Source: a virus. From it: a stretch of DNA of 25,202 nt. Made by a program: the position numbers and the translations under genes. This document shows, in pieces, positions 326 through 23,711 of this stretch (the first letter of the stretch is position 1; every line of letters starts with the position of its first letter). The DNA is taken from positions 1 to 25,202 of IMG/VR virus record IMGVR_UViG_3300031658_000107; one strand, 5' to 3'. The notes under the pieces were generated by a model. That model did no database searches and was not told the origin of the DNA. It saw nothing but the letters and a program-made list of their open reading frames with translations.

Positions 326-661
326 CTACCCGAATGTAGCGCCTGTAATAACTACTGATGTAGCATCAGCGGCTGTTACTGAAGCCAACGCTTCAAGTAC
401 AACTTCAATATCATCGATAGCGGTACCTAGTCCTTCTATACCAAAGATCATATCATTGGCTGTTGCTACGCCTTGGAAAGTAAGTGTTCCCATTTGGCTC
501 ATAGCATCAACGATTGTGTTTAAGTTACTGCCTACGGTTGCTGGTGTAGTTGTGAAATCACCTGCTACCCAAGTGCTTACATTTATATGTACCCATTCAA
601 TGTCTCTTCCTACTGCTTCAAACGGTGATGCGCCACCATGTGCTTTTGTTACTGTTGCCAT
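326..661 (-). CDS. Small probable virion-associated protein (111 aa)
   Basis: This 111-residue protein starts MATVTKAHGGASPFEAVG. It is rich in Ala, Thr, Val and Gly, has no cysteine or charged clusters, and ends with TSVVITGATFG. That composition resembles small beta-rich structural or decoration proteins of phages, but I do not recognise the family. The ATG at 661 has a strong ribosome binding site (AGAGGAA) a few bases upstream. The gene is isolated: a late-type box lies at 724-731, about 63 nt upstream, and a strong terminator lies 21 nt downstream. A one-gene late transcript with a good ribosome binding site suggests a protein made in quantity late in infection. The structural role is inferred from composition and regulation only. 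Confidence 0.75.
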   Translation of the reverse strand: MATVTKAHGGASPFEAVGRDIEWVHINVSTWVAGDFTTTPATVGSNLNTIVDAMSQMGTLTFQGVATANDMIFGIEGLGTAIDDIEVVLEALASVTAADATSVVITGATFG

Positions 662-736: not shown

Positions 737-1189
737 TCATACTTTCTCGTCTTTTGGGTAACGTATCATTGTTTCCCGGTAACGAAAATCCTTGTTCCGT
801 CCTTTATTAGGAACAAAACCAAACCCTTTGTAAAATTTAATGAGCCTACCTTTAGTTCCGCCAAATGCTGTGTCAGGCGTTAAGGCAATAATAGCATGTT
901 CATTATCGGCTTTATCAATTAGATCCTTCATTACTTTAGAACCGACGCCACGCCCGCGCAATTTTACTGGTACTACAATCTTACTAAGTACATAACCCTT
1001 TGTAGCATCGCCGTGTACATCAACTTCAATTTCTTTATTTTCGTCTTCCTTGGTGGTCTTTAAGACTGGCGGATTGTGGGCGTCTTTCTTAAAGCCTTTA
1101 ACTGTTGCTTTACGATTGCGAAATTTGCCTACTAGTATCTCGTCACCAATCTCTATATTAGGTAGTTGTAATATGTCTTTTATTTTCAT
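737..1189 (-). CDS. GNAT-family N-acetyltransferase
   Basis: The protein has 150 residues. The GNAT fold signature is clear: a beta strand (YVLSKIVVP, about 66-74), then the acetyl-CoA binding loop LRGRGVGSKVM (about 77-87) matching the R/Q-x-x-G-x-G/A motif, then a helix, and a late segment LIKFYKGFGFVPNKGRN typical of motif B. It should transfer an acetyl group from acetyl-CoA to an amine; the substrate cannot be told. The N-terminus MKIKDILQLP resembles those of the genes upstream (MRINEIL, MKINEVI, MRLIEF, MKIDDL), but no clear [L/I]xE protease-like site follows. If it belongs to the packaged-cargo set, it could modify host proteins at the start of infection, as T4 Alt does by ADP-ribosylation. 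It lies 18 nt after the 219-aa gene. Confidence 0.8.
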   Translation of the reverse strand: MKIKDILQLPNIEIGDEILVGKFRNRKATVKGFKKDAHNPPVLKTTKEDENKEIEVDVHGDATKGYVLSKIVVPVKLRGRGVGSKVMKDLIDKADNEHAIIALTPDTAFGGTKGRLIKFYKGFGFVPNKGRNKDFRYRETMIRYPKDEKV

Positions 1190-1207
1190 ACGTAATCCGT
1201 TAATCTA

Positions 1208-1867
1208 TTACTGCTGTATTGTAAATTTCCAAGAATCTACTTTATGTGGTAATATAACACCTCGTGGCGCACTGTATGACTGTACATCTACCCGATCTTG
1301 CCACCACACTCCATCTAAATTTAGTTTGCCTGCATATAATGGCAATACATATTCCAATACACCAGTCGATTCCATATCCGAATTATTCGTTTCTGATTTT
1401 AATTTGTCTGTCGGAATAATACCAGATTTGTCTACTACCACATCAACGTGATCCATATCACCATCGTATGCGTGTTCTACTCTTGCATCTTCCATTGAAT
1501 CAAACGTCCGACTCATCGTTTCACCCATATCATCATCAAACCAACTAACTGTCACAGTCTCCTGCTGTACCAAATAATCATTTGCCATAGCCCATTGTGC
1601 TATCTCATTATTTTGCTTTTTATTCAGTGCATGTGCATTCAAAAACGAATGACCTTCTTTCGTTGCACTATATGTATTACCAGTTACATGTCCTCTAGCA
1701 ATCTGTTTCCATTCATCCGGATGGGTACTAACACTTAACCCAGCACCTTCGTAACTGCCTTGCCTCTTGCTAGATGCGTCAAGTGACCCTACATGAAATA
1801 AATCAGATATATGCACTGTGGGCATACTACCATTTTCAACTATATTCAATATCTCATTAATTCTCAT
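1208..1867 (-). CDS. Uncharacterised 219-aa protein with capsid-targeting-like N-terminus
   Basis: The first residues MRINEILNIVENGS carry an I-V-E site at 9-11, like the gp21 cleavage site after T4 capsid-targeting sequences. The core begins with LFHVGSL and reaches EGAGLSVSTHPDEWKQIA, then acidic stretches, then LEYVLPLYAG near residue 170. A His-containing first motif, an S-x-S-T segment and a late glutamate recall the order of elements in ADP-ribosyltransferases. That is only a weak resemblance, and I would not name it as one without structural comparison. The start ATG overlaps the stop of the 35-aa micro-gene (ATGA at 1864-1867), so the two are translationally coupled. Coding is certain from the length and coupling; function is unknown. 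Confidence 0.75.
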   Translation of the reverse strand: MRINEILNIVENGSMPTVHISDLFHVGSLDASSKRQGSYEGAGLSVSTHPDEWKQIARGHVTGNTYSATKEGHSFLNAHALNKKQNNEIAQWAMANDYLVQQETVTVSWFDDDMGETMSRTFDSMEDARVEHAYDGDMDHVDVVVDKSGIIPTDKLKSETNNSDMESTGVLEYVLPLYAGKLNLDGVWWQDRVDVQSYSAPRGVILPHKVDSWKFTIQQ

Positions 1868-1971
1868 TTGTCTTCCTTCTTGAATTCACCCAAGATGCCT
1901 TTATCATCAATGTGATTACGTCTATCAATCCATCTAGAGCCTATTTCTGTTATTACTTCATTTATTTTCAT
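1864..1971 (-). CDS. 35-aa micro-protein consisting mostly of a capsid-targeting-like peptide
   Basis: This short ORF begins MKINEVITEIGSRWIDRRN and ends with a charged tail EFKKEDK. Its start ATG overlaps the stop of the nucleotidyltransferase-like gene (ATGA at 1968-1971). Its stop overlaps the start of the 219-aa gene (ATGA at 1864-1867). Perfect 4-nt overlaps on both sides, in an otherwise gene-tight operon, are strong evidence that it is translated. The N-terminus repeats the M-K/R-I-N-E pattern of its neighbours and has an I-T-E triplet at 7-9, a possible protease site. A gene this short, made largely of the shared leader, could be a small internal head peptide or a remnant of a larger cargo gene. 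It was too short for ordinary ORF calling. Confidence 0.65.
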   Translation of the reverse strand: MKINEVITEIGSRWIDRRNHIDDKGILGEFKKEDK

Positions 1972-2687
1972 GGCAACGTCAATCCTGCTTTAGCAAAGAA
2001 TGCTACAGCATCAGCAACTAGCGTGTCGTACTCGCTAGCCCTGTTTGCTTTCAACTTGGTATTAATAGATTCCACATCTTTCATGTCCTGCACAGTGGCA
2101 TTACCACCCAGCAATGTTTGTGCTATCTTAGTTGGGTCTTTAGTAACAACTTCGTCAGTGTCTCGACGCACTAACCCCATACTAGTAAACTTCATTCCCA
2201 TGGGTTTGGCTATGCTTCCTATCATTATTGCTCGATGCATGCCAGTAAATTCCGACGTTTCATCTGGACCAGCCATCTGGAACTGTAACCATTCTGTATC
2301 ACCAAACATGAGATCAGTCTGCACATAGCCATTGGCCTCATTACCGTTAATGGGCGTTTTAAAGTGTACATTGATGCCAGACTTTTTAACCCATTGTTTG
2401 ATGTCATCATTGGGCTTGTTTATTGCTACCCATTGTGCCAGCTTTGCTACTATATCATCCTTGCTTGTGCTGCTTTCATCCACAGCAATGTCCAGGTCTC
2501 CGCTAGTTTCTTTCTTGCCGGTTGTACCTAATTTATGGTCCACAAGTTGCAAACCAACTATAGGCTCGAGCCATGCCAGCGTAGAATCCACATCGGCTCG
2601 TTTGATTCTGGTTGTAACTGGGACCTTATTGGCGTCTCTGAATACATTTCCGCCTTCTTGTAGTATAGTAAATTCAATTAATCTCAT
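1968..2687 (-). CDS. Nucleotidyltransferase-like protein (pol-beta superfamily signature)
   Basis: The 239-residue protein begins MRLIEFTILQEGG, in which L-Q-E/G at 9-12 fits the T4 gp21 cleavage consensus [L/I]xE/[A/G/S]. After about 40 residues comes LGTTGKK followed by GDLDIAVD (64-70). This matches the hG[G/S]...DhDh signature of minimal and poly(A)-type nucleotidyltransferases, with D64 and D66 as probable metal ligands. The rest is helical and ends FFAKAGLTLP. It may transfer a nucleotide to RNA, protein or a small molecule; the substrate is unknown. The ribosome binding site AAAGGA is good. A degenerate late-like box (core TAAATA, about 2714-2721) lies in the 46-nt gap upstream, but I do not list it separately. 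It is coupled to the downstream 35-aa gene by ATGA. Confidence 0.65.
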   Translation of the reverse strand: MRLIEFTILQEGGNVFRDANKVPVTTRIKRADVDSTLAWLEPIVGLQLVDHKLGTTGKKETSGDLDIAVDESSTSKDDIVAKLAQWVAINKPNDDIKQWVKKSGINVHFKTPINGNEANGYVQTDLMFGDTEWLQFQMAGPDETSEFTGMHRAIMIGSIAKPMGMKFTSMGLVRRDTDEVVTKDPTKIAQTLLGGNATVQDMKDVESINTKLKANRASEYDTLVADAVAFFAKAGLTLP

Positions 2688-2733
2688 TTGGTGTCCTTTA
2701 TTTTAGATATTTTTATTTAGGTATTAGAGTTGC

Positions 2734-4551
2734 TTATTTTTTCCACGCCTTAACAGCATTAAAATTTTGCTGACTAAACTCTAACCGGTCCACTAACTTT
2801 ATAGCGCCGCCGTCTTGGCGTATAGCAACAAAACCTTCTGGGTTAGTTACTTTATAGCCATCGCCGTCTCTGACAAATGTTCTTAACCCAGCCACTTGAT
2901 GTAACTTCTGAATAATCATCAACTTAATTTCCACGATGCGCTTGTATACTGCTAACACACCCAATATGGCATTGGAATTGTCTTCTAGGAACTCTTCCTT
3001 CTGTTGCATCTTAATTATACGATTCTGGACACCAACGTTCTCTTCGCCTTTGTCCACTATAATCTTATCAATTTCAACTTGTAACTTACCTTTGTAAAAT
3101 GTTAAGAATGATGTTAAGAATTCATTTGTGCTTGTGACACTCTTGCCATCTCGTACCATCTGATTTACAAATGGTTTAATATACTTGCTGAATTCTTTGT
3201 TGTCAATGACAATGTTAAATTTGGCCGGACGTATCTTTTGCATTGTTGCTTGTATTGCCTTGATCTGATTGCCTATCTTGCTTAATTCAGCAGTCGTTAA
3301 TGTTGCTTTACCGGTCACATCTCTAAATGTGGCATCATCTACCCATACTTCCTTGGACTGATTAAGACCAGATACATCAACACCAAACCTTGCTTGCATT
3401 GTGGACAATTCTGCACCTTCGTACGCCGTATGAAATACTATCCCCATCTTAGCACGAAGCATTCGCTTTGCCAAATCGCTGTCTGCTGGCATTGCATATG
3501 TAATTGTGTTTGGTGTGAATGAAAGCATGTTCTCGCCGTTTATTGTTTCTGTCACAAGTGATTTACGATCAAACATAAAGTCGCCCTGTAATACACCACC
3601 GATACCCAATTCAGGCAATACGTTTAGTGCTAGTTCAAGTGTTTGCCATAAGCCATCCTTGTCACCATAATACTTCATCAATGATGCTTTATTCTTAGCC
3701 AATCGTGGTTCAGTGTTGAATACAGATTTTGTACCAACAAAAAACTTGCCATCTGCTGGGTCTATACCACATATAATAGCAGGAGCGCCATCCCATTTTG
3801 TTGTAATTGTAGCTTTTTCGCCTGTACCGTCAGATAACATTCCAGCTACTTGCATGATATATTCTATTGCTTGCTCTGCGCCTTCATATCCATTATTGAA
3901 CACAAGATCTTCCAGGTGTTCCATGTGAGTATTTTTACCTGCACCTGCTTCTGCTAGATACCGATTAAAACTCTTCTCTATAGATTCCGTTGGTTTGTTT
4001 CTTGTACTATCGTTGTGTGTGCGCTTAAACTTACCACTGGGTGTTGCTGCACTAGGTGTTGCTGCACTAGGTGTTGCTGCACTAGGTGTTGCTGCACTAG
4101 GTGTTGCTGCACTAGGTGTTGCTGTGCTAGGTGTTGCTGTGCTAGGTGTTGCTGCGGAGGCACTTGTTGCATAAAATTTATCAACTACTGTTGTGATGTA
4201 CTTAGACACTTCTGAATCTTTACTGGCATTGCCAGTAAACGGCATGTTAGTTAGTATTTCTTGACGTTCAGCTGGTGCTCCCATAAACTGTTTAAGCCAT
4301 GCGTTAAACTCTTCATATGTTAGTTTCTTGCCCGTGTGTTGTAACTCTTTGTTGTACCGGTCACTCCATACCTCTAGCATACTGTCTACCATTTTTTTCT
4401 TTCTAAGTACAGTGCCGCGTTTACTGTTACTGGCAATGGCAGCGGCTCTTTTTAATCTGCGCTGTCCAGCAGCCGAGTCTTTGCCACGTAATGCATTTAC
4501 TACACCCGTGGCAAAGTTCAAGGGCCCCTCATTTAAATCATCTATTTTCAT
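2734..4551 (-). CDS. Large DUF6267-like protein with nucleic-acid-ligase-like motifs and a repeat linker
   Basis: The protein has 605 residues in three parts. Residues 1-130 are a basic helical domain that starts MKIDDLNEGPL, with L-N-E/G at 6-9 as a possible capsid protease site. Residues about 131-172 are a low-complexity linker of five-residue A/T-A-T-P-S units. From about 190 comes the main domain: FNRYLAEAGAG (second L-A-E/A site at 199-202), NTHMEHLEDLVF, then TTKWDGAPAI with K252-x-D-G like motif I of ATP-dependent ligases. GGVLQGDFMFD recalls motif III, and near the C-terminus PEGFV (571-575) and AIKLVD (K585) recall motifs IV and V. From memory, the region after 195 matches the phage DUF6267 family, whose members often begin at the FNRYLAEA-like segment. 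I infer a covalent nucleotidyltransferase or ligase with an added N-terminal extension. Start and upstream stop overlap (ATGA at 4548-4551). Confidence 0.7.
   Translation of the reverse strand: MKIDDLNEGPLNFATGVVNALRGKDSAAGQRRLKRAAAIASNSKRGTVLRKKKMVDSMLEVWSDRYNKELQHTGKKLTYEEFNAWLKQFMGAPAERQEILTNMPFTGNASKDSEVSKYITTVVDKFYATSASAATPSTATPSTATPSAATPSAATPSAATPSAATPSAATPSGKFKRTHNDSTRNKPTESIEKSFNRYLAEAGAGKNTHMEHLEDLVFNNGYEGAEQAIEYIMQVAGMLSDGTGEKATITTKWDGAPAIICGIDPADGKFFVGTKSVFNTEPRLAKNKASLMKYYGDKDGLWQTLELALNVLPELGIGGVLQGDFMFDRKSLVTETINGENMLSFTPNTITYAMPADSDLAKRMLRAKMGIVFHTAYEGAELSTMQARFGVDVSGLNQSKEVWVDDATFRDVTGKATLTTAELSKIGNQIKAIQATMQKIRPAKFNIVIDNKEFSKYIKPFVNQMVRDGKSVTSTNEFLTSFLTFYKGKLQVEIDKIIVDKGEENVGVQNRIIKMQQKEEFLEDNSNAILGVLAVYKRIVEIKLMIIQKLHQVAGLRTFVRDGDGYKVTNPEGFVAIRQDGGAIKLVDRLEFSQQNFNAVKAWKK
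4036..4155 (-). repeat. Eight 15-bp tandem repeats encoding an Ala/Thr/Pro/Ser linker
   Basis: Eight in-frame copies of a 15-bp unit (plus-strand form ACTAGGTGTTGCTGC with small variants) lie inside the 605-aa gene. Each codes for one A-A-T-P-S or T-A-T-P-S block. The copies at the minus-strand 3' side are nearly identical, which suggests recent expansion by slippage. The peptide is a flexible linker between the N-terminal extension and the ligase-like domain. Copy number may vary between related phages. Confidence 0.9.
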
Positions 4552-4826
4552 TCTTTGCTTTCCTTGCTTTCCTTGCTTTCCTTGATTCGTGTAATTGCCC
4601 GAGAAAACTTCTTTGTGTCGCGTCCTCGGATACTGTTCACTAGCCTACGCTCTAACTCCAACGCCTGATCTGCGCTATAATTTTCATTTATGTAATCTAT
4701 TAGATTAATAGCACTTGATATAACATGCTTTGCACGAGATTCCACTATGTGTTCTTTGTCCTTTTCGATGCATAAAGAATTTAGCTCGTCTAGTATGCTT
4801 CTTACTTCCTGTGATTCGTGACTCAA
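4548..4826 (-). CDS. Hypothetical helical protein with ESK repeats at the C-terminus (92 aa)
   Basis: The start is TTG at 4826, preceded by GGAG at a distance of about 10 nt. There is no internal methionine and an in-frame stop lies just upstream, so TTG is the only reasonable start. The product begins MSHESQEVRSILDELN, is mostly charged helix with NLIDYINENYS near residue 45, and ends IRGRDTKKFSRAITRIKE plus three E-S-K units. I know of no function; small proteins of this pattern occur in T4-like phages. The last codons form a 9-bp repeat rich in GGAAAG that doubles as the ribosome binding region of the next gene, whose ATG overlaps this stop. A late-type box (4851-4858) lies just upstream, so this is probably the first gene of a late unit covering the putative capsid cargo. 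Confidence 0.65.
   Translation of the reverse strand: MSHESQEVRSILDELNSLCIEKDKEHIVESRAKHVISSAINLIDYINENYSADQALELERRLVNSIRGRDTKKFSRAITRIKESKESKESKE
4553..4588 (-). repeat. 9-bp tandem repeats at a gene end (ESK units)
   Basis: Four consecutive units, the middle two identical (plus-strand CCTTGCTTT), encode the C-terminal E-S-K repeats of the 92-aa protein. On the minus strand each unit contains GGAAAG, a Shine-Dalgarno-like purine run, and the last lies a few bases before the ATG of the 605-aa gene. Copy-number change would lengthen the 92-aa protein while keeping a ribosome binding site in place. Confidence 0.8.
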
Positions 4827-4850: not shown

Positions 4851-4858
4851 TATTTATG
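4851..4858 (-). promoter_or_regulatory. Late-type promoter box CATAAATA
   Basis: The minus strand reads CATAAATA, 7 of 8 to TATAAATA. It overlaps the stop of the upstream radical-SAM gene and lies 24 nt before the TTG start of the 92-aa gene. Placement at the head of the putative cargo block fits late expression, but one mismatch and the coding overlap keep confidence modest. Confidence 0.4.
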
Positions 4859-5966
4859 CAAGATTAAATAAAGTAATATACTTGGTTGGATACAATGCAC
4901 CAAATGACTGGTTACGCAAACGATCCAGTGCTGAGATATTACTATCAAATGTGCTGTTCCCAGACAACGCAATTGCTTCGGCATTTAATGCTTTAATAAT
5001 AAAAGGGAAATTATACAACCGTTGTTTTAAATGCTCTTTTACTGCCGTATTTAGATTTTTAATATTGTACCATGCTGGATTGGTTAACAATGTGTACGTG
5101 ACATCAAATCCCTGGGACTGTACCCAGGCATCAAACTCTGGCACATTGTGTATATTGATTGCCGAAACGGTGCTATTGACTTTAAATATAATGTTGTCTG
5201 TGTTTGTGGCATAAGTGTCCCATTGGGAAATATTGGATTGCACCCGATCCCATTTGGCTGGATACCTGCAGTACTCAAATACTTGATGTGTGCCATCCAA
5301 GGAGACTGTGATATTAACCTGTTTGAATTTCGTCCATTGTTCAGTTAATGCTGGTGGCGGTAAGAACGTGCCATTGGTCATGTACGAAAGCAGAATGGAT
5401 CCTGGATTGTCCAAACTGCGTAGCAGATCTGCTTGCTCCTGTACCTGATCAGCAAAGGGCTCGCCTCCTATAAATTGCATAAATCGCAAGTTTGATTGAT
5501 GTGTCAGTACCCAGTTTACATACTCGGGATCTTTGAGATGTCTAGCAGGCCTAGCGTAATACGGTTCAATTGCTATGTCAAGTTCAGCCAGTCGGTTGTA
5601 ATCTGATATCCAACGAGACGATGAATTAGGGTGACATATACGACATGCCAAGTTACATACCTGTGTAATAGCTAGTTCAATATACACCGGGTCAGCATGA
5701 TCAAGTATTTCAAAATTGGCAGCTATTGGTGCATGCATTTGTCTTAGAGATACTACTCCAGCGCCCTCTGCTCTCCAGCAGTCAGTACATTCTGTTGGCT
5801 GCTCTCCATCCAGGAATTGCTGTTTTATTTTTTTAAGTTGGCCCGACTGTTGGTATTGTTTCCAATCAGAAACCTCCTCAAAATCAGAAATAGTACAGCA
5901 TGGTTGCATTTTACCATCAGCACGTATGCTGATGGCAAGCCAAGGAAGTTTACAAAATTTACTCAT
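4854..5966 (-). CDS. Radical SAM protein with N-terminal cysteine cluster (paralogue A)
   Basis: The 370-residue protein has the radical-SAM [4Fe-4S] motif C-x3-C-x2-C at C104, C108 and C111 (within QVCNLACRICHP). FIGGEPF follows, the usual GGEP SAM-binding motif, then SYMTNGT and NITVSLDG strands of the TIM-barrel. Before the core is a cysteine-rich start (KFCKLPW; CC at 23-24; CTDCW at 60-64) typical of twitch/SPASM-type auxiliary cluster regions placed at the N-terminus. It should cleave S-adenosylmethionine to a 5'-deoxyadenosyl radical. The target is unknown; SPASM/twitch relatives modify peptides, proteins or small molecules. It is a paralogue of the gene just upstream (5976-7118), with the same layout and a gap of only 9 nt. 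Both may depend on an electron donor such as the ferredoxin at 13763-14011. Confidence 0.85.
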   Translation of the reverse strand: MSKFCKLPWLAISIRADGKMQPCCTISDFEEVSDWKQYQQSGQLKKIKQQFLDGEQPTECTDCWRAEGAGVVSLRQMHAPIAANFEILDHADPVYIELAITQVCNLACRICHPNSSSRWISDYNRLAELDIAIEPYYARPARHLKDPEYVNWVLTHQSNLRFMQFIGGEPFADQVQEQADLLRSLDNPGSILLSYMTNGTFLPPPALTEQWTKFKQVNITVSLDGTHQVFEYCRYPAKWDRVQSNISQWDTYATNTDNIIFKVNSTVSAINIHNVPEFDAWVQSQGFDVTYTLLTNPAWYNIKNLNTAVKEHLKQRLYNFPFIIKALNAEAIALSGNSTFDSNISALDRLRNQSFGALYPTKYITLFNLA

Positions 5967-5975
5967 TTGTTATAG

Positions 5976-7118
5976 CTATGTGGTTATATTTAACAGTTTG
6001 GCATAAGCAGGGAATAATGCGTTAAATGATTTATTGTTTATTTTATCCATTGCTTCCACATACCGTTTTGTGTCGGCCAGATGTGATGTCTGGCCAGGGT
6101 GTTGTTTCATAAAATCAATAAACGGTTCAAGTTGCTCTATTCCCTGCCAAGCATCATATATCATCGGGCGAGCGTTTTCTGGAATGTGTCGTATTCCGTA
6201 ATACTCGGGCGTAACCAATGGAGCTAGTACAACTTTTATTTTGTTATGCATTGCCCAATCCATTAATTCTGGCAATGCCATAACGTTCAACACCGACACT
6301 GTGGTCATCAAACACAACTCCACATCTGGATGGTCCTGTCTGACTTGTAAATAAAAGTCAACTGCTCGTAGGCAATCCTGCCATTTGCCTGGATACCTAA
6401 GATATTCAAACGCATCGCCTATACCGTCCACTGAAATGTTTATTTCCAGTCGTGGAATTCTGTGCCATTGTTCCACTATCAACGGGTCTGGCATTATGGT
6501 CCCGTTAGTAATGTATTCCAAACTTCTAAAATGTGCCATATTAAGATTTTTTAATAGGTCAACATGCTCAGCAACTTGCCCTAGAAATGGCTCTCCGCCT
6601 ATCAATGTCAATCTTTTCAGATGTTTATACTTTAGTATACTCTGCACATATTGCGAATCGGTTAATCGCTTGGGCACTGCACTGGTCTCATTGAACTTCA
6701 CTGATATTTCATTGTTGGTTGCTTGTAACTTCTTTTCCAATGCAACCCACTTAGTGGAACTTGCCGAGGAACATATGCTACATACCAAATTACATATGTT
6801 GCCGGTGTTCATTTCAATATCAACCACACCATTTTCCAACACCGTGTAATCTATGTCGTTGCCATCCTGGTGGTTGGATTCTGTGTTTATTATCATTCTT
6901 CGACTGAAGCCACCTGCGGCTTCGGTCTCCCAACATTGAAAACAAGCCTCTGGTTCTATACCATTCAAAAAATTCTCTTTGAATTGTGCCAACTGTTTGT
7001 TCTTGGGATAAGTAGATACATCCCGGGGATTCTGATCAGTTCCTGTGAAACAACATGGACTGATGTAGAGTTGCCCTATCACCATGTCGGTCCAAGGAGC
7101 ATAACAAAACCTACCCAT
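5976..7118 (-). CDS. Radical SAM protein with N-terminal cysteine cluster (paralogue B)
   Basis: This 380-residue protein is organised like its neighbour. The N-terminal cysteines are RFCYAPW (C5), CC at 22-23 and CFQCW at 59-63. The radical-SAM motif C-x3-C-x2-C is at C109, C113 and C116 (CNLVCSIC). Then come LIGGEPFLG, EYITNGT and EINISVDGIGDAFEYLRYPGKW, the last closely echoed in paralogue A (YCRYPAKW). Both end with an SFxALxP...LLN/LFN segment. The pair looks like a duplication followed by divergence. It overlaps the helicase gene by 8 nt (7111-7118), so it is transcribed with the replication genes. The substrate is unknown, and the two could act on the same target one after the other or as a heterodimer. 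Confidence 0.85.
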   Translation of the reverse strand: MGRFCYAPWTDMVIGQLYISPCCFTGTDQNPRDVSTYPKNKQLAQFKENFLNGIEPEACFQCWETEAAGGFSRRMIINTESNHQDGNDIDYTVLENGVVDIEMNTGNICNLVCSICSSASSTKWVALEKKLQATNNEISVKFNETSAVPKRLTDSQYVQSILKYKHLKRLTLIGGEPFLGQVAEHVDLLKNLNMAHFRSLEYITNGTIMPDPLIVEQWHRIPRLEINISVDGIGDAFEYLRYPGKWQDCLRAVDFYLQVRQDHPDVELCLMTTVSVLNVMALPELMDWAMHNKIKVVLAPLVTPEYYGIRHIPENARPMIYDAWQGIEQLEPFIDFMKQHPGQTSHLADTKRYVEAMDKINNKSFNALFPAYAKLLNITT

Positions 7119-8517
7119 TTTTCAATCCGGACAGCATGTTTTTTAACTTGGAACTCTGTACTTCTACTTTGGGCACTTTTACTATTTCTCCTGTAACCGA
7201 ATCAAATTGTTCTGCTGCTTGTTTATTTTTAATCTTATCCATAATATAACTGCTCGTTGGGCCCTTTGGCCTTAGTTCGTCTTCGTCTGCATCAGTTATC
7301 TTTAATGTATCTACATCAAATAACAAATCTACCTTTTGACCAACACCTGAACTGGATCTTGTCTTCATTAACTGTAACTGATACCTGCCAGCCTCTTGCA
7401 TTGCTCTGCTCTTATATATACCGAATACGTTGTCTGCTGTATTGATTTTAGATATACCACCTGAAATCATACTATGATCAAAGTCTACTTCTTCAACAGA
7501 ACTTCTATTTAACTGAGATGCAGTCACAAACAATATGCCCAACTCACTTGCTAAGTTACGCAACTCTTCCGATACATATTTGTCCTTTATGAACACGTCA
7601 CTTGGCGCTACTTTAGCACTAACTGGCATTAACAGATCCAAATAATCCACTAGTAAGAAATCAATTTGCTTGCCTGTCTTGATGTGCAGTTCTCTTATAT
7701 ATGCTCTAATGTCGTTTACAGTTGATTGTGCTGGCATATACTTAATCTGAAAATGTCCAGATTTCTTACCTAATATAGATACTTTGGTTGCTACATTATC
7801 TACATCCTTGAAGATTTGCCTGGACGGTATACCGGCCATTATACTATCTATTCTCATTGAACTCAGGCCCTCGCCTAATTCCAATGTTAAATAAACACCA
7901 TTTAACCCTTTCTCTATCCAGTTCACTGCTAAGTTCTGCATAAACAAACTTTTGCCCGAACCTGACCCACCTGCAAATATATTTAGTTCGCCTTTGTTGA
8001 ATCCACCATATAACTTGCGATCTAGCCCAGCCCAGCCCGTTGATACTTGTCCGTTGTTGTCTCGTAATGCTAACAATCTTGCCTTAGGATCAGCGAAATA
8101 ATCTGTACCCATGTCCTTTGTTAATGATATCTGCACAGCATCTTTGATCAGTTTCTCAACTGGGTCGTAGTCTCCTTCTTCCAGCATGTCAGCGGCAGCC
8201 AATATTGCTCTTGAAAGTTCTTGTTTGCGTGTAAACTTTTCAAATTCTGTCAAAAACCAATCGCCGCTAGCATCATCATAGTTTGTTACTGGTTGTAATT
8301 GTGATCCTGTGGCACCTTCTAACACCTGTAACGATGGCAATGAACTATAGTCATTTGCGTATTCGTACATAAAGTCTGCTGTTGCTTTTAGGCTCTTATC
8401 AAAGTTCTGGGGATTGTATATATTTTGAACCCGAGCATATAACTCTGGTTCGTGCAACATCATTTCCAGGAATAACTTTTGAAATGCTGCATTATAATCG
8501 TTTGGTTCACTTGCCAT
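7111..8517 (-). CDS. gp41: Replicative DNA helicase, T4 gp41 / DnaB type
   Basis: The 468-residue protein has an N-terminal helical domain (1-150) and a RecA-like helicase domain. It carries Walker A GGSGSGKS at 183-190, the DnaB-type TLELGEG element near 211, and Walker B FLLVDYLDLL with D291. FVTASQLNR (motif H3) and a C-terminal MKTRSSSGVGQKVDLLFD arginine-finger region follow. It unwinds DNA as a hexamer on the lagging strand and works with the primase encoded just upstream (8507-9550), whose 3' end overlaps this start by 11 nt. T4 encodes the same pair (41 and 61). Length matches the family. Confidence 0.93.
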   Translation of the reverse strand: MASEPNDYNAAFQKLFLEMMLHEPELYARVQNIYNPQNFDKSLKATADFMYEYANDYSSLPSLQVLEGATGSQLQPVTNYDDASGDWFLTEFEKFTRKQELSRAILAAADMLEEGDYDPVEKLIKDAVQISLTKDMGTDYFADPKARLLALRDNNGQVSTGWAGLDRKLYGGFNKGELNIFAGGSGSGKSLFMQNLAVNWIEKGLNGVYLTLELGEGLSSMRIDSIMAGIPSRQIFKDVDNVATKVSILGKKSGHFQIKYMPAQSTVNDIRAYIRELHIKTGKQIDFLLVDYLDLLMPVSAKVAPSDVFIKDKYVSEELRNLASELGILFVTASQLNRSSVEEVDFDHSMISGGISKINTADNVFGIYKSRAMQEAGRYQLQLMKTRSSSGVGQKVDLLFDVDTLKITDADEDELRPKGPTSSYIMDKIKNKQAAEQFDSVTGEIVKVPKVEVQSSKLKNMLSGLKNG

Positions 8518-9550
8518 TTAACTTTCTCTTGTGTAATTCTATTTTAAGTTTTGTATCTAGCATGTTACTTATAATACTTTTCAACGTGAACAATTTTCCA
8601 TATCGTTGTACCGCTTCGCCGGCATCCTTGACGTCTGGACACCACTCTGGAAAAGCAACTGACCAACCGTACTCTAAAGCAGCATTGATTAATGGTATGC
8701 CCGTTGCGTTCATATCTGGCACTACTATTACTTTCTTGCCTAGATGCTCAATAAGATCTGCTTGCTCGGCTGATACTGTATTCGATAACACTGCTACACC
8801 ATTTAGCAGTAAAGCATCTATTGGTCCTTCAAATACCAACACAAACTCGGATTCTGTTATCAATCTGTCTACGCCATATACATAGTTACTGTCTACTTCA
8901 TTTAAGTATTTGGGTTTTATACCTGCACTAAGACTTCGGGCAGTATATCCTACAATTTTATCTTTCCATGTAAATGGAATAATCAATCGCCTGTTCATGG
9001 CAGACTCTTTGCTTTCGGTCCAGTACAGATCTGGCATCTGTGATAGGTCGCCTAGTCTATCACTTGCGTATTCTACTGCTTTTATCAAACCAGGCGGGTA
9101 ATCAGTTGTTCCTTTGAGCTCAAAGAATTCAAGCCATTGCACAAACGACACAGATTCTGGTGGCAGTTTGCGTTCCTTGAATACAATTTCTTCATATTCT
9201 TTTGGTTCCGTATTAACCAGAACATTTATGTCCTGGACACGCATTGCTTCTATAACCATACGATTAATATCGTTGGTTGTGGCACCCATCCAAGTTAATA
9301 ATTTGCGTGTTTTATGATATAGCTTTTTGCCTGGAGTGAAGCCTGTTTTAAATCCACAGTTAAAGCAACTGTATACAATGCCGCCCGTCATTTCGTCCAA
9401 ATGGACACCAGCGCGTCCCCTAGTGTCTTTAGATTCGCCATTATGGACACAGCAAATAGCATTGCCGTGACGCCATCCCTTAGGGCTAACCCGAGTCTTT
9501 CGTGTTGAAGACCAGGTTTTAAGAATAAAATCTGTTACAGTGTTTTGCAT
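8507..9550 (-). CDS. gp61: DNA primase, T4 gp61 / DnaG type
   Basis: The 347-residue protein opens with a zinc-binding domain: CCVH at 33-36 and CFNCGF at 61-66. The catalytic TOPRIM core follows: VLVFEGPIDALLLNG with E241, and VIVVPDMN with D279. The segment RLIIPFTWKDKIVGYTARSL (about 188-207) matches the conserved RNA-polymerase basic motif of DnaG-like enzymes. It makes RNA primers for Okazaki fragments and pairs with the adjoining gp41-type helicase. The start ATG 9550 is 15 nt after the stop of the preceding gene. Confidence 0.92.
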   Translation of the reverse strand: MQNTVTDFILKTWSSTRKTRVSPKGWRHGNAICCVHNGESKDTRGRAGVHLDEMTGGIVYSCFNCGFKTGFTPGKKLYHKTRKLLTWMGATTNDINRMVIEAMRVQDINVLVNTEPKEYEEIVFKERKLPPESVSFVQWLEFFELKGTTDYPPGLIKAVEYASDRLGDLSQMPDLYWTESKESAMNRRLIIPFTWKDKIVGYTARSLSAGIKPKYLNEVDSNYVYGVDRLITESEFVLVFEGPIDALLLNGVAVLSNTVSAEQADLIEHLGKKVIVVPDMNATGIPLINAALEYGWSVAFPEWCPDVKDAGEAVQRYGKLFTLKSIISNMLDTKLKIELHKRKLNGK

Positions 9551-10846: not shown

Positions 10847-10947
10847 CGCATCATTAAAATCTGGGCACCTATCACGCCTACTCCCGGCAACACAAATCCA
10901 ATTATCATTAATCCCATTGCCAACCAAAACATATAATCAATTTTCAT
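10843..10947 (-). CDS. 34-aa single-pass membrane peptide
   Basis: This small ORF starts MKIDYMFWLAMGLMIIGF and ends VIGAQILMMR. Nearly the whole peptide is one hydrophobic helix with G-x-x-G/P spacing and a positive C-terminal residue. Its ATG overlaps the stop of the polymerase-like gene (ATGA at 10944-10947), as at other gene junctions here. It converges on the plus-strand gene, overlapping its stop by 4 nt. It could be an inner-membrane peptide acting on host physiology or lysis timing. Evidence for translation is the overlap and the consistent membrane character. It is too short for a family assignment. Confidence 0.6.
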   Translation of the reverse strand: MKIDYMFWLAMGLMIIGFVLPGVGVIGAQILMMR

Positions 10948-11540
10948 TCTGCCTCTTCTATTAGGCTCATGTGTACGTGTACTGCCATAGCATACGATAT
11001 TGCATGTGATTTACGAAACGTATAACCATCATTCTCATTCCTATCCCACACAGTTTTCTCGACAACAGACCATTCGGTATGTCGCAAATGCTTCTTGCCA
11101 GGCCGAATGATTGCCAAGAACATGGCCATCTCTGTTATAGAGGTTGGCTGCATTTCCGCTAACAAATCGTAATAATTGCTAATGTGAACAATTTTGCTAA
11201 CAAATTCAGCATCTGTTGCTAATCTGTGCCAGTTTGGCTCTTTTGCTAATAATTGATCGAGATGCTCTTCGTTGCGTACTGTGTCGTATACTCCTAAGTT
11301 GAGAAAATCCAACTTAAAATAACCACGACCTTCTGCTACTTTATGGTCAAGTGCAGCATTGCCTGTAATTGGATCTGTTGCTATTGCTGTGTAGTACATG
11401 CCTGTGTTATGCTTCCTGGCCACATTGTCTTTAATAATAGACGCAGGTATTCCACCCAACAGCGCAATGGCAGTATCGCGGTCGCCGAAATCTATATCAA
11501 TATCCGGGTTATTAAAGTTTTTTGTTAAAACCTGATTCAT
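10944..11540 (-). CDS. Miniature DNA polymerase III alpha (DnaE)-like protein
   Basis: In 198 residues this protein keeps the signature blocks of C-family DNA polymerases, in order. PDIDIDF (12-18) corresponds to the PDFDVDF palm motif with two catalytic aspartates. KLDFLNL (76-82) corresponds to KFDFLGL with the third aspartate. SITEMAMFLAIIRPGKKHL (134-152) corresponds to the SxxDLxAxxALxRPGP block, and YTFRKSHAISYAMAVH (173-188) to YxFNKSHAAAYA. A bacterial alpha subunit has over 1000 residues and about 150 between the first two blocks; here there are about 60. The PHP domain, fingers, beta-binding tail and OB domain are absent. It is probably a degenerate or repurposed polymerase core, perhaps a DNA- or nucleotide-binding accessory. 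It overlaps the upstream zinc-finger gene by 29 nt. Confidence 0.7.
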   Translation of the reverse strand: MNQVLTKNFNNPDIDIDFGDRDTAIALLGGIPASIIKDNVARKHNTGMYYTAIATDPITGNAALDHKVAEGRGYFKLDFLNLGVYDTVRNEEHLDQLLAKEPNWHRLATDAEFVSKIVHISNYYDLLAEMQPTSITEMAMFLAIIRPGKKHLRHTEWSVVEKTVWDRNENDGYTFRKSHAISYAMAVHVHMSLIEEAE

Positions 11541-14364: not shown

Positions 14365-15819
14365 TTAATCCCTGTCCAATTTGGTTATTATAAATGGATA
14401 GGCAACCTCTTTATAGAATTTCTTGCGTTCTGTTAAGTGTCGTTTTGCGTACTTACACGTACTTGTAATATCCCATATTTCCACATGGTCTTTATCTGTT
14501 GCCAGACGTAAGCCTCGTCCTATACTTTGAATAACACGAACAAAACTCTTGCCGGGCTCGAACAAGCCTAGATTAAATATCCTGGGTATATTCAGGCCAA
14601 CTGCGGCTATGCCGTATGTGGCTATAATTACAATGTTGTTTTCGTTGTGTGCTCTAGAATACTCTTCTTTTCGTTTGTTGTCTTTGTCTTGCCCTGATAG
14701 GAACACACTGTTTGGTATCATTTCTTCTAGTAATTTGCCAGTTTTGATGTAATTAACTAGCAATAATACGTTTCCATTCTCACTTATTTGCGTAAATATC
14801 CTGCCTACTTGTTCTAGCCTTGCTATGTCACCTGTCAGATATTTCATCTCTGCTTGATAATTGCCATACTCTCCAAAGTCTTTCATTTGTAAAATGTTCA
14901 CATTACATTTAGCCAGCAAGCCCTTGTCCTGTAATTCTTTAGCTGACACTTTGCCTATTACATCGCCGATGCTAGTCTTTAATGCATAGAAGTTAAAATC
15001 CTCTCGCGGTATTGTGCCAGTAAGTCCCCAACGCATGGGTATTTTCCCCAATGGGCCTTGTAGCATAGCCTTCAAAACCTCCGCCTTCATTCCATGGCAC
15101 TCGTCCACTATAACAGCAACAACACCCTGTAATATGTCACTAAGTGCAATTGCGTCTGGATTCTTCTTGCTCTTACGACTGATGCTGTCCAAACTTTGCC
15201 ATGTACAGATAGTATGTGTTTTGCCGTACTCGTGTCTGCCACCAAAGATGACACCGGTGTCCAGACCCATGTTAATGTAATCTTCTTCTGTTTGAGATAC
15301 CAATGAACGGTTGGGCACAACTACTATTGTTCTGCCAAACTTCTCACATCGTTCACTGAGTGCTGCGGTTACCATAGTTTTACCTGCACCTGTCGCGACC
15401 TCTTGCAATGACTGTGTATCTCCTAAGAAATTATTGATGGTACTTACCTGATGGTCTGCTAACACAATTCCTTGCCCTTCTAGACGATGGTCCTTAGGCC
15501 ATATTACATGATTGTATGAGTTTGTGTCGACGGGCTCAAATGTGTAATCTGTGCGATAGGTTCGCAAGTCATCTATTTCAATTTCATACCCTGCCTCTAG
15601 CACAACAGGTATAATTTCTGGTAGTAAATTGATATATGTAGAGCCTCCCAATTGAAAGAATGCCACAGTGCCATCCCACCTGCCTAGTTTGAATGCTGGC
15701 ATATGTCTAGCATGCGGTAAGATAAACTTAAACTTCTTGACCAATTTGGTTCGTATGTTAACATCCAACCCAGATATCTTGACGTTAGTCTCGTCTTTTA
15801 TAGTGAATATTGCCTTCAT
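14365..15819 (-). CDS. uvsW: UvsW-type RNA-DNA and DNA-DNA helicase
   Basis: The 484-residue SF2 helicase has the UvsW N-terminal DNA-binding region (FKLGRWDGTVAFFQ near 43-56). It carries Walker A ATGAGKT (142-148), motif II DECH (239-242), motif III LTGTIPR and C-terminal motifs including AAVGLNIPR and QSIGRGLR. In T4, UvsW unwinds R-loops and Holliday-type junctions, shuts off origin-dependent replication and supports recombination-dependent replication. Length matches the family. The start overlaps the preceding 414-aa gene by 35 nt (15785-15819). Confidence 0.93.
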   Translation of the reverse strand: MKAIFTIKDETNVKISGLDVNIRTKLVKKFKFILPHARHMPAFKLGRWDGTVAFFQLGGSTYINLLPEIIPVVLEAGYEIEIDDLRTYRTDYTFEPVDTNSYNHVIWPKDHRLEGQGIVLADHQVSTINNFLGDTQSLQEVATGAGKTMVTAALSERCEKFGRTIVVVPNRSLVSQTEEDYINMGLDTGVIFGGRHEYGKTHTICTWQSLDSISRKSKKNPDAIALSDILQGVVAVIVDECHGMKAEVLKAMLQGPLGKIPMRWGLTGTIPREDFNFYALKTSIGDVIGKVSAKELQDKGLLAKCNVNILQMKDFGEYGNYQAEMKYLTGDIARLEQVGRIFTQISENGNVLLLVNYIKTGKLLEEMIPNSVFLSGQDKDNKRKEEYSRAHNENNIVIIATYGIAAVGLNIPRIFNLGLFEPGKSFVRVIQSIGRGLRLATDKDHVEIWDITSTCKYAKRHLTERKKFYKEVAYPFIITKLDRD

Positions 15820-22715: not shown

Positions 22716-23711
22716 TTAAATTAGCTCCTGGTCAAAAAACCATCGTTTTGATTTAATTGATACTGCTTTGTTTACATCTAACATCTGTAATTCGTTTTCT
22801 GTTAGTACGTCGATTTCTTCCTTGATTATGTCACCAATCACCCATTTGATAAATGATCCCAAATGCTTCCTGTCGAAATCTGGTGTGAATGAATCTATTC
22901 CTAATTTAAAATCATACACTGTAGGCAACACTTCTCTAGCAGCCTGTTCCAAGCGGTTGGGTGTAACCGCGTATTCAACAAACTCCATTATAGAGTTTAC
23001 TTTCTCAACATCAACAGGAGCCAATGTTCTTACTTTGGAAACATTGTGCTTTTTTCCTTTGACTTTAAATGATATTAGCTCGCCGTTGTCAGTGATATGT
23101 TCCCATACAACCCCTTCACCTGTACCACTAACACCAAAGAACATGCCAACTGGACATTGGGCCTCGATCTCTTGTGTTATCGCAATCAGACAGTTTTGGG
23201 CAAGTTCAGGATTAGCAAAGTCGATAACAATTTCCTCTCTTTGAACACTCAAGGCATCAATGATGCAATTCTGCAGTGATTTAAATTCTGGGCGTTTTCT
23301 AATCCATTTTTCAGTAATACTGCTTATTAGCCTTACGCCAAAACAATAAAAGAATTTGGGCACCTGTGTCACTGCTGCGCCAGACTGGATTCCTTTTCCT
23401 GCAAATTCACCGTATATAACAACCGTGTCGGTTACCGTTGCCAAATTGTCTTCTATTAGTTGTTGTTTGTATTTCAAAAAAGCATCACTGCGAGATTTTA
23501 CCCATCTCGCAAAGCCAGCGTTATCATTGTCTACATTGATTTCGTTGTTCTTGGATTGCACTGTTAAGGTATCGTCTGGCGCAATAACCACAGACGCATT
23601 CGTGCCATGCACCTTAACTGTTCCGTAGAATTTTAGTATAGGATCACGACCATGCCTTGTTACATCGCGTATAACGTTCCTAAACTGAACAATGGATGGA
23701 TATTTGATCAT
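22716..23711 (-). CDS. RNA ligase, T4 Rnl2 family
   Basis: The 331-residue protein has motif I KVHGTN with nucleotidylated K33, motif III GEFAGKG (101-107), motif IV EGVVWE (199-204) and motif V FKVKGKKH (215-222), all in order and spaced as in T4 Rnl2. The C-terminal helical part (about 225-331) fits Rnl2's own C-terminal domain. It seals nicks in RNA, using ATP through an enzyme-AMP step. In T4 relatives, RNA ligase can undo host anticodon-nuclease damage. Its gene is the first of an operon with a consensus sigma70 promoter (23734-23762), so expression is expected early. Confidence 0.9.
   Translation of the reverse strand: MIKYPSIVQFRNVIRDVTRHGRDPILKFYGTVKVHGTNASVVIAPDDTLTVQSKNNEINVDNDNAGFARWVKSRSDAFLKYKQQLIEDNLATVTDTVVIYGEFAGKGIQSGAAVTQVPKFFYCFGVRLISSITEKWIRKRPEFKSLQNCIIDALSVQREEIVIDFANPELAQNCLIAITQEIEAQCPVGMFFGVSGTGEGVVWEHITDNGELISFKVKGKKHNVSKVRTLAPVDVEKVNSIMEFVEYAVTPNRLEQAAREVLPTVYDFKLGIDSFTPDFDRKHLGSFIKWVIGDIIKEEIDVLTENELQMLDVNKAVSIKSKRWFFDQELI

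Follow-up and report, generated by a model that had tools for sequence, protein, structure and literature searches.

A putative capsid-cargo gene block beside the replication genes of a T4-like virus fragment

Results and Discussion

Five adjacent genes with related N-termini

The virus record IMGVR_UViG_3300031658_000107 (positions 1 to 25,202, the whole of which is called the window below) is a 25.2-kb fragment with a T4-like replication region. On its minus strand, between positions 737 and 4551, five adjacent genes encode mostly enzyme-like proteins that begin with similar short N-termini. Why should proteins with such different domains share a start? In phage T4, the protease gp21 recognizes the motif L/I-x-E, and the capsid-targeting sequence is 10 residues long (PMC9026906). 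The initial annotation of the window took the five N-termini for leaders of this type. In our analysis, the block is likely to be a late-expressed capsid-cargo gene set of a T4-like phage, in which leader-bearing enzymes would be targeted to the head, cut by gp21, packaged, and delivered to the host. The genes and their leader-like starts are as follows (aa, amino acids; a slash marks the predicted cut).

2734..4551, minus strand: 605-aa protein with a leader, an N-terminal extension, a TPSAA repeat linker, an internal site and a DUF6267 ligase-like domain
4528..4551, minus strand: leader MKIDDLNE/G of the 605-aa protein (pattern match; counterpart in the relative L001)
1968..2687, minus strand: 239-aa Pol-beta-type nucleotidyltransferase with an SGDLDIAV motif (homologues and predicted structure)
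2655..2687, minus strand: nucleotidyltransferase leader MRLIEFTILQE/G (E11 unchanged across eight homologues; model disordered over residues 1-12)
1864..1971, minus strand: 35-aa open reading frame (ORF) of uncertain status with the leader-like start MKINEVITE/I (start sequence)
1208..1867, minus strand: 219-aa protein with the leader-like start MRINEILNIVE/N (start sequence)
737..1189, minus strand: 150-aa GNAT protein, in which MKIKDILQ and a GKFKN module of 45 residues precede the GNAT domain (profile matches; no [LIV]xE site)

The five ORFs and their N-termini were found as first described, as was the [L/I]xE site in four of the five. The pattern M[KR]x(1-9)[LIV]xE occurred in 4/5 block genes versus 0/28 other window genes (Fisher P = 1.2e-4, for a pattern picked post hoc with the data already seen). 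The residue after the site (P1') is small in the 605-aa protein (G9, A202) and in the 239-aa protein (G12). Written with the residues that follow, the leader segments are MKIDDLNEGP and MRLIEFTILQEGG, and the internal-site segment of the 605-aa protein is SFNRYLAEAGAG. Judged from sequence, the leader reading appears right for these two principal proteins, for which it is backed by conserved sites, by gp21 in relatives, and by enzymes in the virions of relatives. For the 219-aa and 35-aa genes it is plausible from the start sequence, and the support is weak, with no homologues in which a leader could be tested.

A cleavage-type site at the edge of DUF6267

The strongest evidence for reading these motifs as cleavage sites comes from sequence conservation at the edge of DUF6267 in the 605-aa protein, where three further features were located.

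2749..3933, minus strand: DUF6267 domain, residues 207-601 (PF19782), with KWDG (252), QGDF (322), EGFV (572) and KLVDR (585)
4032..4152, minus strand: TPS[AT]A repeat linker, residues ~134-173 (sequence)
3949..3972, minus strand: internal leader-like site SFNRYLAE201/A202, just before DUF6267 (edge conservation in homologues)

The profile PF19782 was covered over its full length (1-376/376; E 7e-109, 365 bits versus a cut-off of 27). An extension of ~200 residues containing the repeat linker precedes the domain, and the internal site stands between the two. Among homologues, [LIV]xE was found no more than 9 residues from the domain in 66/82 sequences. When the domain was embedded, that is, preceded by more than 150 residues, the site lay at its edge in 31/31 sequences, or in 18/18 distinct ones after similar sequences were removed, versus 8.7% at control positions. 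P1' was A in 44 of the 52 aligned edge sites. This pattern is the gp21 rule of T4 (PMC9026906). The nearest relative, L001, has both sites, MKIEDFGDLNE/GP at the start and LMSKYLIE/AA inside. Thus, the 605-aa protein looks like a gp21-cut polyprotein with a second, internal site (YLAE201/A202), which is new here. In the nucleotidyltransferase, E11 is invariant in the eight homologues and is followed by G or S, and the preceding sequence varies.

A more ordinary explanation is that these are intracellular enzymes for nucleic-acid repair or host takeover, and that their N-termini are short charged starts with no targeting role. The genes do adjoin replication genes (helicase and primase) and not head genes, leaderless DUF6267 homologues exist, and leader-like starts arise by chance. 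However, [LIV]xE/A is kept exactly at the edge of domains embedded in long proteins, and a start-codon effect cannot account for this. In addition, leader-bearing enzymes of homologous blocks are found in virions, and the first gene of the block, which is homologous to that for a PHROG virion protein, stands behind a conserved late-type box (both described below). We consider this explanation unlikely.

The motif might also be the conserved first turn of a folded domain, so that its conservation would be structural and unrelated to cleavage; the site does directly adjoin each domain. Against this, 15 homologues begin right after the site position without L-x-E, and the site segments are predicted to be disordered (predicted local distance difference test [pLDDT] <50, residues 1-20 and 1-12 of two models). 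The motif also precedes unrelated folds, namely DUF6267, the Pol-beta nucleotidyltransferase, CTP_transf_like, and a zeta-type kinase in HTVC008M. A structural origin of the motif is very improbable.

Several results weigh against the capsid-cargo reading. The 15 stand-alone DUF6267 homologues just mentioned start with M-AKA-NTH or M-GKA-NTH and lack a leader, as do the DUF6267 proteins of the cyanophages S-CAM8, S-CAM9, and S-SM1; therefore, the leader is not universal. The starts of the 15 coincide with the expected start of the cut product, which supports the edge as a functional N-terminus and shows the leader to be optional. P1' is N in the 219-aa gene and I in the 35-aa gene, outside the A/G/S of T4, and the 150-aa GNAT protein has no [LIV]xE site. 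In HTVC008M, the leader pattern was only marginally enriched (3/22 block genes versus 5/175 non-block genes, P = 0.047), and leader-like starts occurred by chance in ~3% of the genes outside the block. Virion detection of DUF6267 or of the nucleotidyltransferase was not found in article texts (supplementary tables aside). Finally, Peptidase_S77 (gp21) was not found in the 25-kb fragment, where its absence is uninformative. As for conservation of the leaders among homologues, the DUF6267 edge and E11 of the nucleotidyltransferase were retained while the upstream sequences differed, and the leaderless DUF6267 proteins departed from this.

Other arrangements of the DUF6267 gene were also observed. 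In the relative L002, a GIY-YIG (SegE-like) homing endonuclease gene (5256-5921) lies inside the homologue of the 605-aa gene, between the halves for the N-terminal extension and DUF6267, and splits that gene near the position predicted for internal cleavage. A DUF6267 polyprotein of L056 (720-4514) contains a copper-binding domain of the plastocyanin/azurin type (PF00127). A 239-aa gene of Atu_ph07 was considered as a homologue of the N-terminal extension and rejected; it has the same position, and the likeness is only positional because no sequence match was obtained.

Enzyme classes of the putative cargo

The domains had been guessed to be ligase-like, nucleotidyltransferase-like, and GNAT, and all three assignments held: DUF6267 with its KWDG motif, a Pol-beta fold in the 239-aa protein, and GNAT in the 150-aa protein. 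DUF6267 has the invariant motifs K-W-D-G, Q-x-D, E-G-x-V, and K-x-V-D-R, with invariant residues K65, D67, G68, E385, G386, V388, and K398. Such a motif set is that of ATP-dependent ligases and the nucleotidyltransferases related to them, a superfamily marked by motif I (KxDG), motif IV (EGxV), and a lysine in motif V. In a structure search, DNA/RNA ligases ranked first, weakly (E 0.05, low TM-score), and a comparison with Protein Data Bank (PDB) sequences gave chance matches only. The DUF6267 domain resembles an ATP-dependent ligase that has diverged, an assignment that is new here; because the ligase-first structure matches are weak, we infer this class. No paper on DUF6267 was found in the literature searched. 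At 22716-23711, the window also encodes a conventional RNA ligase (PHROG 548); leaderless and thus unpackaged-looking, it is the phage's second ligase in addition to the DUF6267 protein.

The AlphaFold model of the 239-aa protein had a pLDDT of 88.9, with residues 1-12 disordered. Its best solved structures were DNA polymerase mu, DNA polymerase lambda, and PolX (E 1e-4, probability 1.00, TM-score ~0.5), and 32 PolX-type structures were matched at E <= 0.001. G54, G57, S62, G63, D64, and D66 are invariant, so that the Pol-beta G-[GS]...DxD motif is found together with the fold. The 239-aa protein is predicted from this model to have a Pol-beta fold, which is also new here. In some homologues, this domain is internal to, or opens, a longer protein that contains DUF6267-like and CTP_transf_like domains, and E11 is kept in these as well.

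The first 50 residues of the 150-aa protein form a module with ~80% identity to stand-alone small proteins (64 aa), and this module also occurs inside DUF6267 polyproteins. The GNAT domain groups with DarB-like and PLxRFG proteins. For the 219-aa protein, there was no homologue in viral contigs and no PDB match; a weak match in a Dolichospermum phage record was set aside, as it starts past the leader, looks G+C-rich, and lies in a context that looks unrelated. Nothing supported the 219-aa protein as an ADP-ribosyltransferase (pattern 'LFHVGS...GLSVS'). The 35-aa ORF gave a trivial C-terminal match only. In relatives, the putative cargo also includes zeta/PNK-like kinases, NT5C, and CCA-type enzymes.

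The kinship of the GNAT domain raises the question of whether these are effectors of the polyvalent type (Iyer et al. 2017) whose packaging depends on other signals, with the leaders being incidental. In relatives, several enzyme domains are joined in a single protein, and Atu_ph07 gave a weak LPD3 match. However, the genes of the window are separate and have their own starts, and these phages possess a T4 system into which the leader fits. In a profile search, the block genes of the window were single-enzyme genes with no LPD or peptidase domain. We regard this origin as highly improbable, and it differs from the capsid-cargo reading chiefly in how the proteins would be targeted, with the outcome largely the same. 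As in the polyvalent proteins and DarA/DarB of phage P1 (PMC5512222), the capsid-cargo set would include the GNAT family and multi-enzyme cargo, with multi-domain chains in relatives. Unlike them, it consists mostly of separate genes with short gp21-type leaders, and processing is predicted to occur at [LIV]xE by the prohead protease, whereas theirs is by a built-in metallopeptidase.

Homologous blocks and virion proteins in relatives

A block of this kind adjoins the gp41 helicase gene in HTVC008M, S-SM1, S-SCSM1, Atu_ph07, and Phosso. Leaders in the blocks of relatives include MIPFILKE/G (zeta/PNK-like kinase), MYNDLLVE/D (DUF6267), and MKKFSAFLNE/A (NMNAT-like), and the GNAT gene in the same block of Atu_ph07 has MRLFQLLE/T. 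In the cyanophage NMNAT/cytidylyltransferase, the leader M[KR][KS]F..F[LIF]xE/A is kept down to 42% identity.

Some of these enzymes are known from virions. According to passages of PMC3037559, the NMNAT-like T4-GC190 of S-SM1 was detected by mass spectrometry in the purified virion; we found that it bears a leader. Likewise, passages of PMC9602691 report NMNAT of S-SCSM1, detected by mass spectrometry in CsCl-purified particles; its leader is MKSFLQFLKE/A, and neighbouring genes are annotated as virion proteins. In Atu_ph07, 29 proteins of a virion cluster spanning coding sequences (CDS) 31-76 were identified by mass spectrometry (PMC6102473). The block, CDS 55-69 counted from the start of the record, lies within this cluster, and the count places the helicase at gp70, in agreement with PMC6102473. 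In the first 60 kb of Atu_ph07, every leader-pattern gene found sits at or after CDS 43. No DUF6267 was found in the virion block of S-SCSM1, and the virion evidence therefore concerns the neighbours of DUF6267 and not DUF6267 itself. Because tagged enzymes of the same gene block are present in the particles of distant relatives, the virus of the window probably ships ready-made enzymes into its host.

Within the Atu_ph07 block, CDS 55-62 (L110 43318-44088; L106 91-5508) are eight tandem paralogues of ~255 aa with the leader M[KR]W.QL[TNI]E and an LYRG-type motif. From sequence, they are possibly an expanded family of packaged effectors resembling ADP-ribosyltransferases; as members of that enzyme class they have the LYRG motif only, with no Pfam match for the two tested.

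The gp21 protease

Peptidase_S77 was present in 9/16 records carrying relatives, including all five cultured phages tested (HTVC008M, S-SM1, Atu_ph07, Phosso, and immuto). The gp21-type protease implied by the initial annotation was thus located in relatives and not within the fragment. The gp21 proteases of L112, L113, L115, and L116 have [LIV]xE near their own N-termini (LIAE/A, FLCE/E, VVE/G, and LLKE/A), which would fit self-cutting.

Upstream gene and late-type box

Two features stand at the head of the block.

4548..4826, minus strand: 92-aa gene (TTG start), the block's first gene (PHROG 11854 'virion structural protein', E 4e-18)
4851..4858, minus strand: late-promoter-like box CATAAATA, then GGAG; the 92-aa gene starts 24 nt after the box

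A counterpart of the 92-aa gene lies directly upstream of the DUF6267 genes in L001, L002, and L004-L018. The late-type box reported before the block is present. Judged by frequency, it is at chance (12 boxes of the CATAAATA type in the window versus 10.8 expected), so its conserved position alone counts: L001 has CATAAATA before the same 84-92-aa gene with the identical 24-nt spacing, and L002 has the similar AATAAATA there.

Proposed mechanism and comparison with known systems

In the proposed mechanism, the short N-termini would be propeptides for capsid targeting, through which each enzyme reaches the core of the prohead. Cutting after [L/I]xE would be done by a gp21-type protease whose gene lies outside the fragment, and the freed enzymes would be packaged alongside the DNA and enter the host at infection. 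Cuts at E8/G9 and E201/A202 would divide the 605-aa protein into a cargo piece from its N-terminal part and the ligase-like DUF6267 enzyme in free form, and the 239-aa nucleotidyltransferase would be cut once, at E11/G12. We infer targeting, cutting, and injection in this phage, as well as the substrates of the enzymes. By analogy with T4, injection and action may precede phage transcription, as the initial annotation had supposed; it had overlooked the internal site, how widely the block is conserved, and the virion data already available for relatives.

The mechanism is of a known kind, T4 capsid targeting; the cargo and the polyprotein-like precursors are new. As in IPI-III and Alt of T4 (PMC9026906), the leaders have 6-11 residues, start with MK or MR, end in [L/I]xE, and go with a late-type box; the T4-like relatives have gp21, and the cyanophage leader MK[KS]F..FLxE/A is close to the IPIII leader MKTYQEFIAE/A. 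Unlike in T4, the cargo is ligase-like, a Pol-beta nucleotidyltransferase, and GNAT, the genes adjoin replication genes, an internal site separates two cargo pieces of the 605-aa protein, and no ADP-ribosyltransferase was identified in the window. T4-GC190 of S-SM1 and S-SCSM1 shares the block beside gp41 and the leader type, and it is proven in virions by mass spectrometry; the enzyme itself is not in the window. Its leader goes unmentioned in the passages of PMC3037559 and PMC9602691 concerned. The head proteins of phiKZ and SPN3US (PMC5694885) likewise comprise enzymes and other cargo with propeptides cut after Glu, but those propeptides are long (often >100 residues) and the motif is [S/A]xE.

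As to the role of the cargo, our most specific guess is nucleic-acid or nucleotide repair at entry. A broader proposal, which we find possible but doubtful, is that T4-like phages of many hosts carry a swappable nucleic-acid end-repair kit beside gp41, loaded into the head as leader-tagged or gp21-cut polyproteins and repairing tRNA or DNA damage from host defence at entry, before phage genes are read. Its members would be the ligase-like DUF6267, a Pol-beta or CCA-type nucleotidyltransferase, a PNK/zeta-type kinase, an NT5C phosphatase, and NMNAT. The capsid-cargo reading, if true, would explain why enzymes such as the cyanophage NMNAT recur in virion proteomes, and a leader or an internal [LIV]xE/A at a domain edge would predict capsid cargo in marine T4-like and jumbo phages. 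The T4 internal-protein system would be widened from small inhibitors and Alt to nucleotidyltransferase-type enzymes, some of them polyproteins cut in the head, and for DUF6267 both the likely enzyme class and where it is likely to act would be indicated.

Surroundings of the block

The replication region includes genes resembling those for the gp41 helicase (7111-8517), the gp61 primase (8507-9550), and UvsW (14365-15819), as read from translations and from the gene order shared with the annotated genomes of HTVC008M and S-SM1. Two tandem radical-SAM proteins are encoded at 4854-5966 and 5976-7118, with the helicase gene on one side and the putative cargo block on the other; the first gave a weak SPASM match. 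A 198-aa ORF (10944-11540) gave a very weak match to the finger domain of the DNA polymerase III alpha subunit (E 0.15); its homologue lies at 408-992 of L001, and it is unusual in a T4-like replication region. At the end of the block, small Gly/Ala-rich proteins occupy the same relative position in the window (326-661) and in L002 (8857-9213); they are perhaps homologous (phmmer not significant) and could be abundant head proteins.

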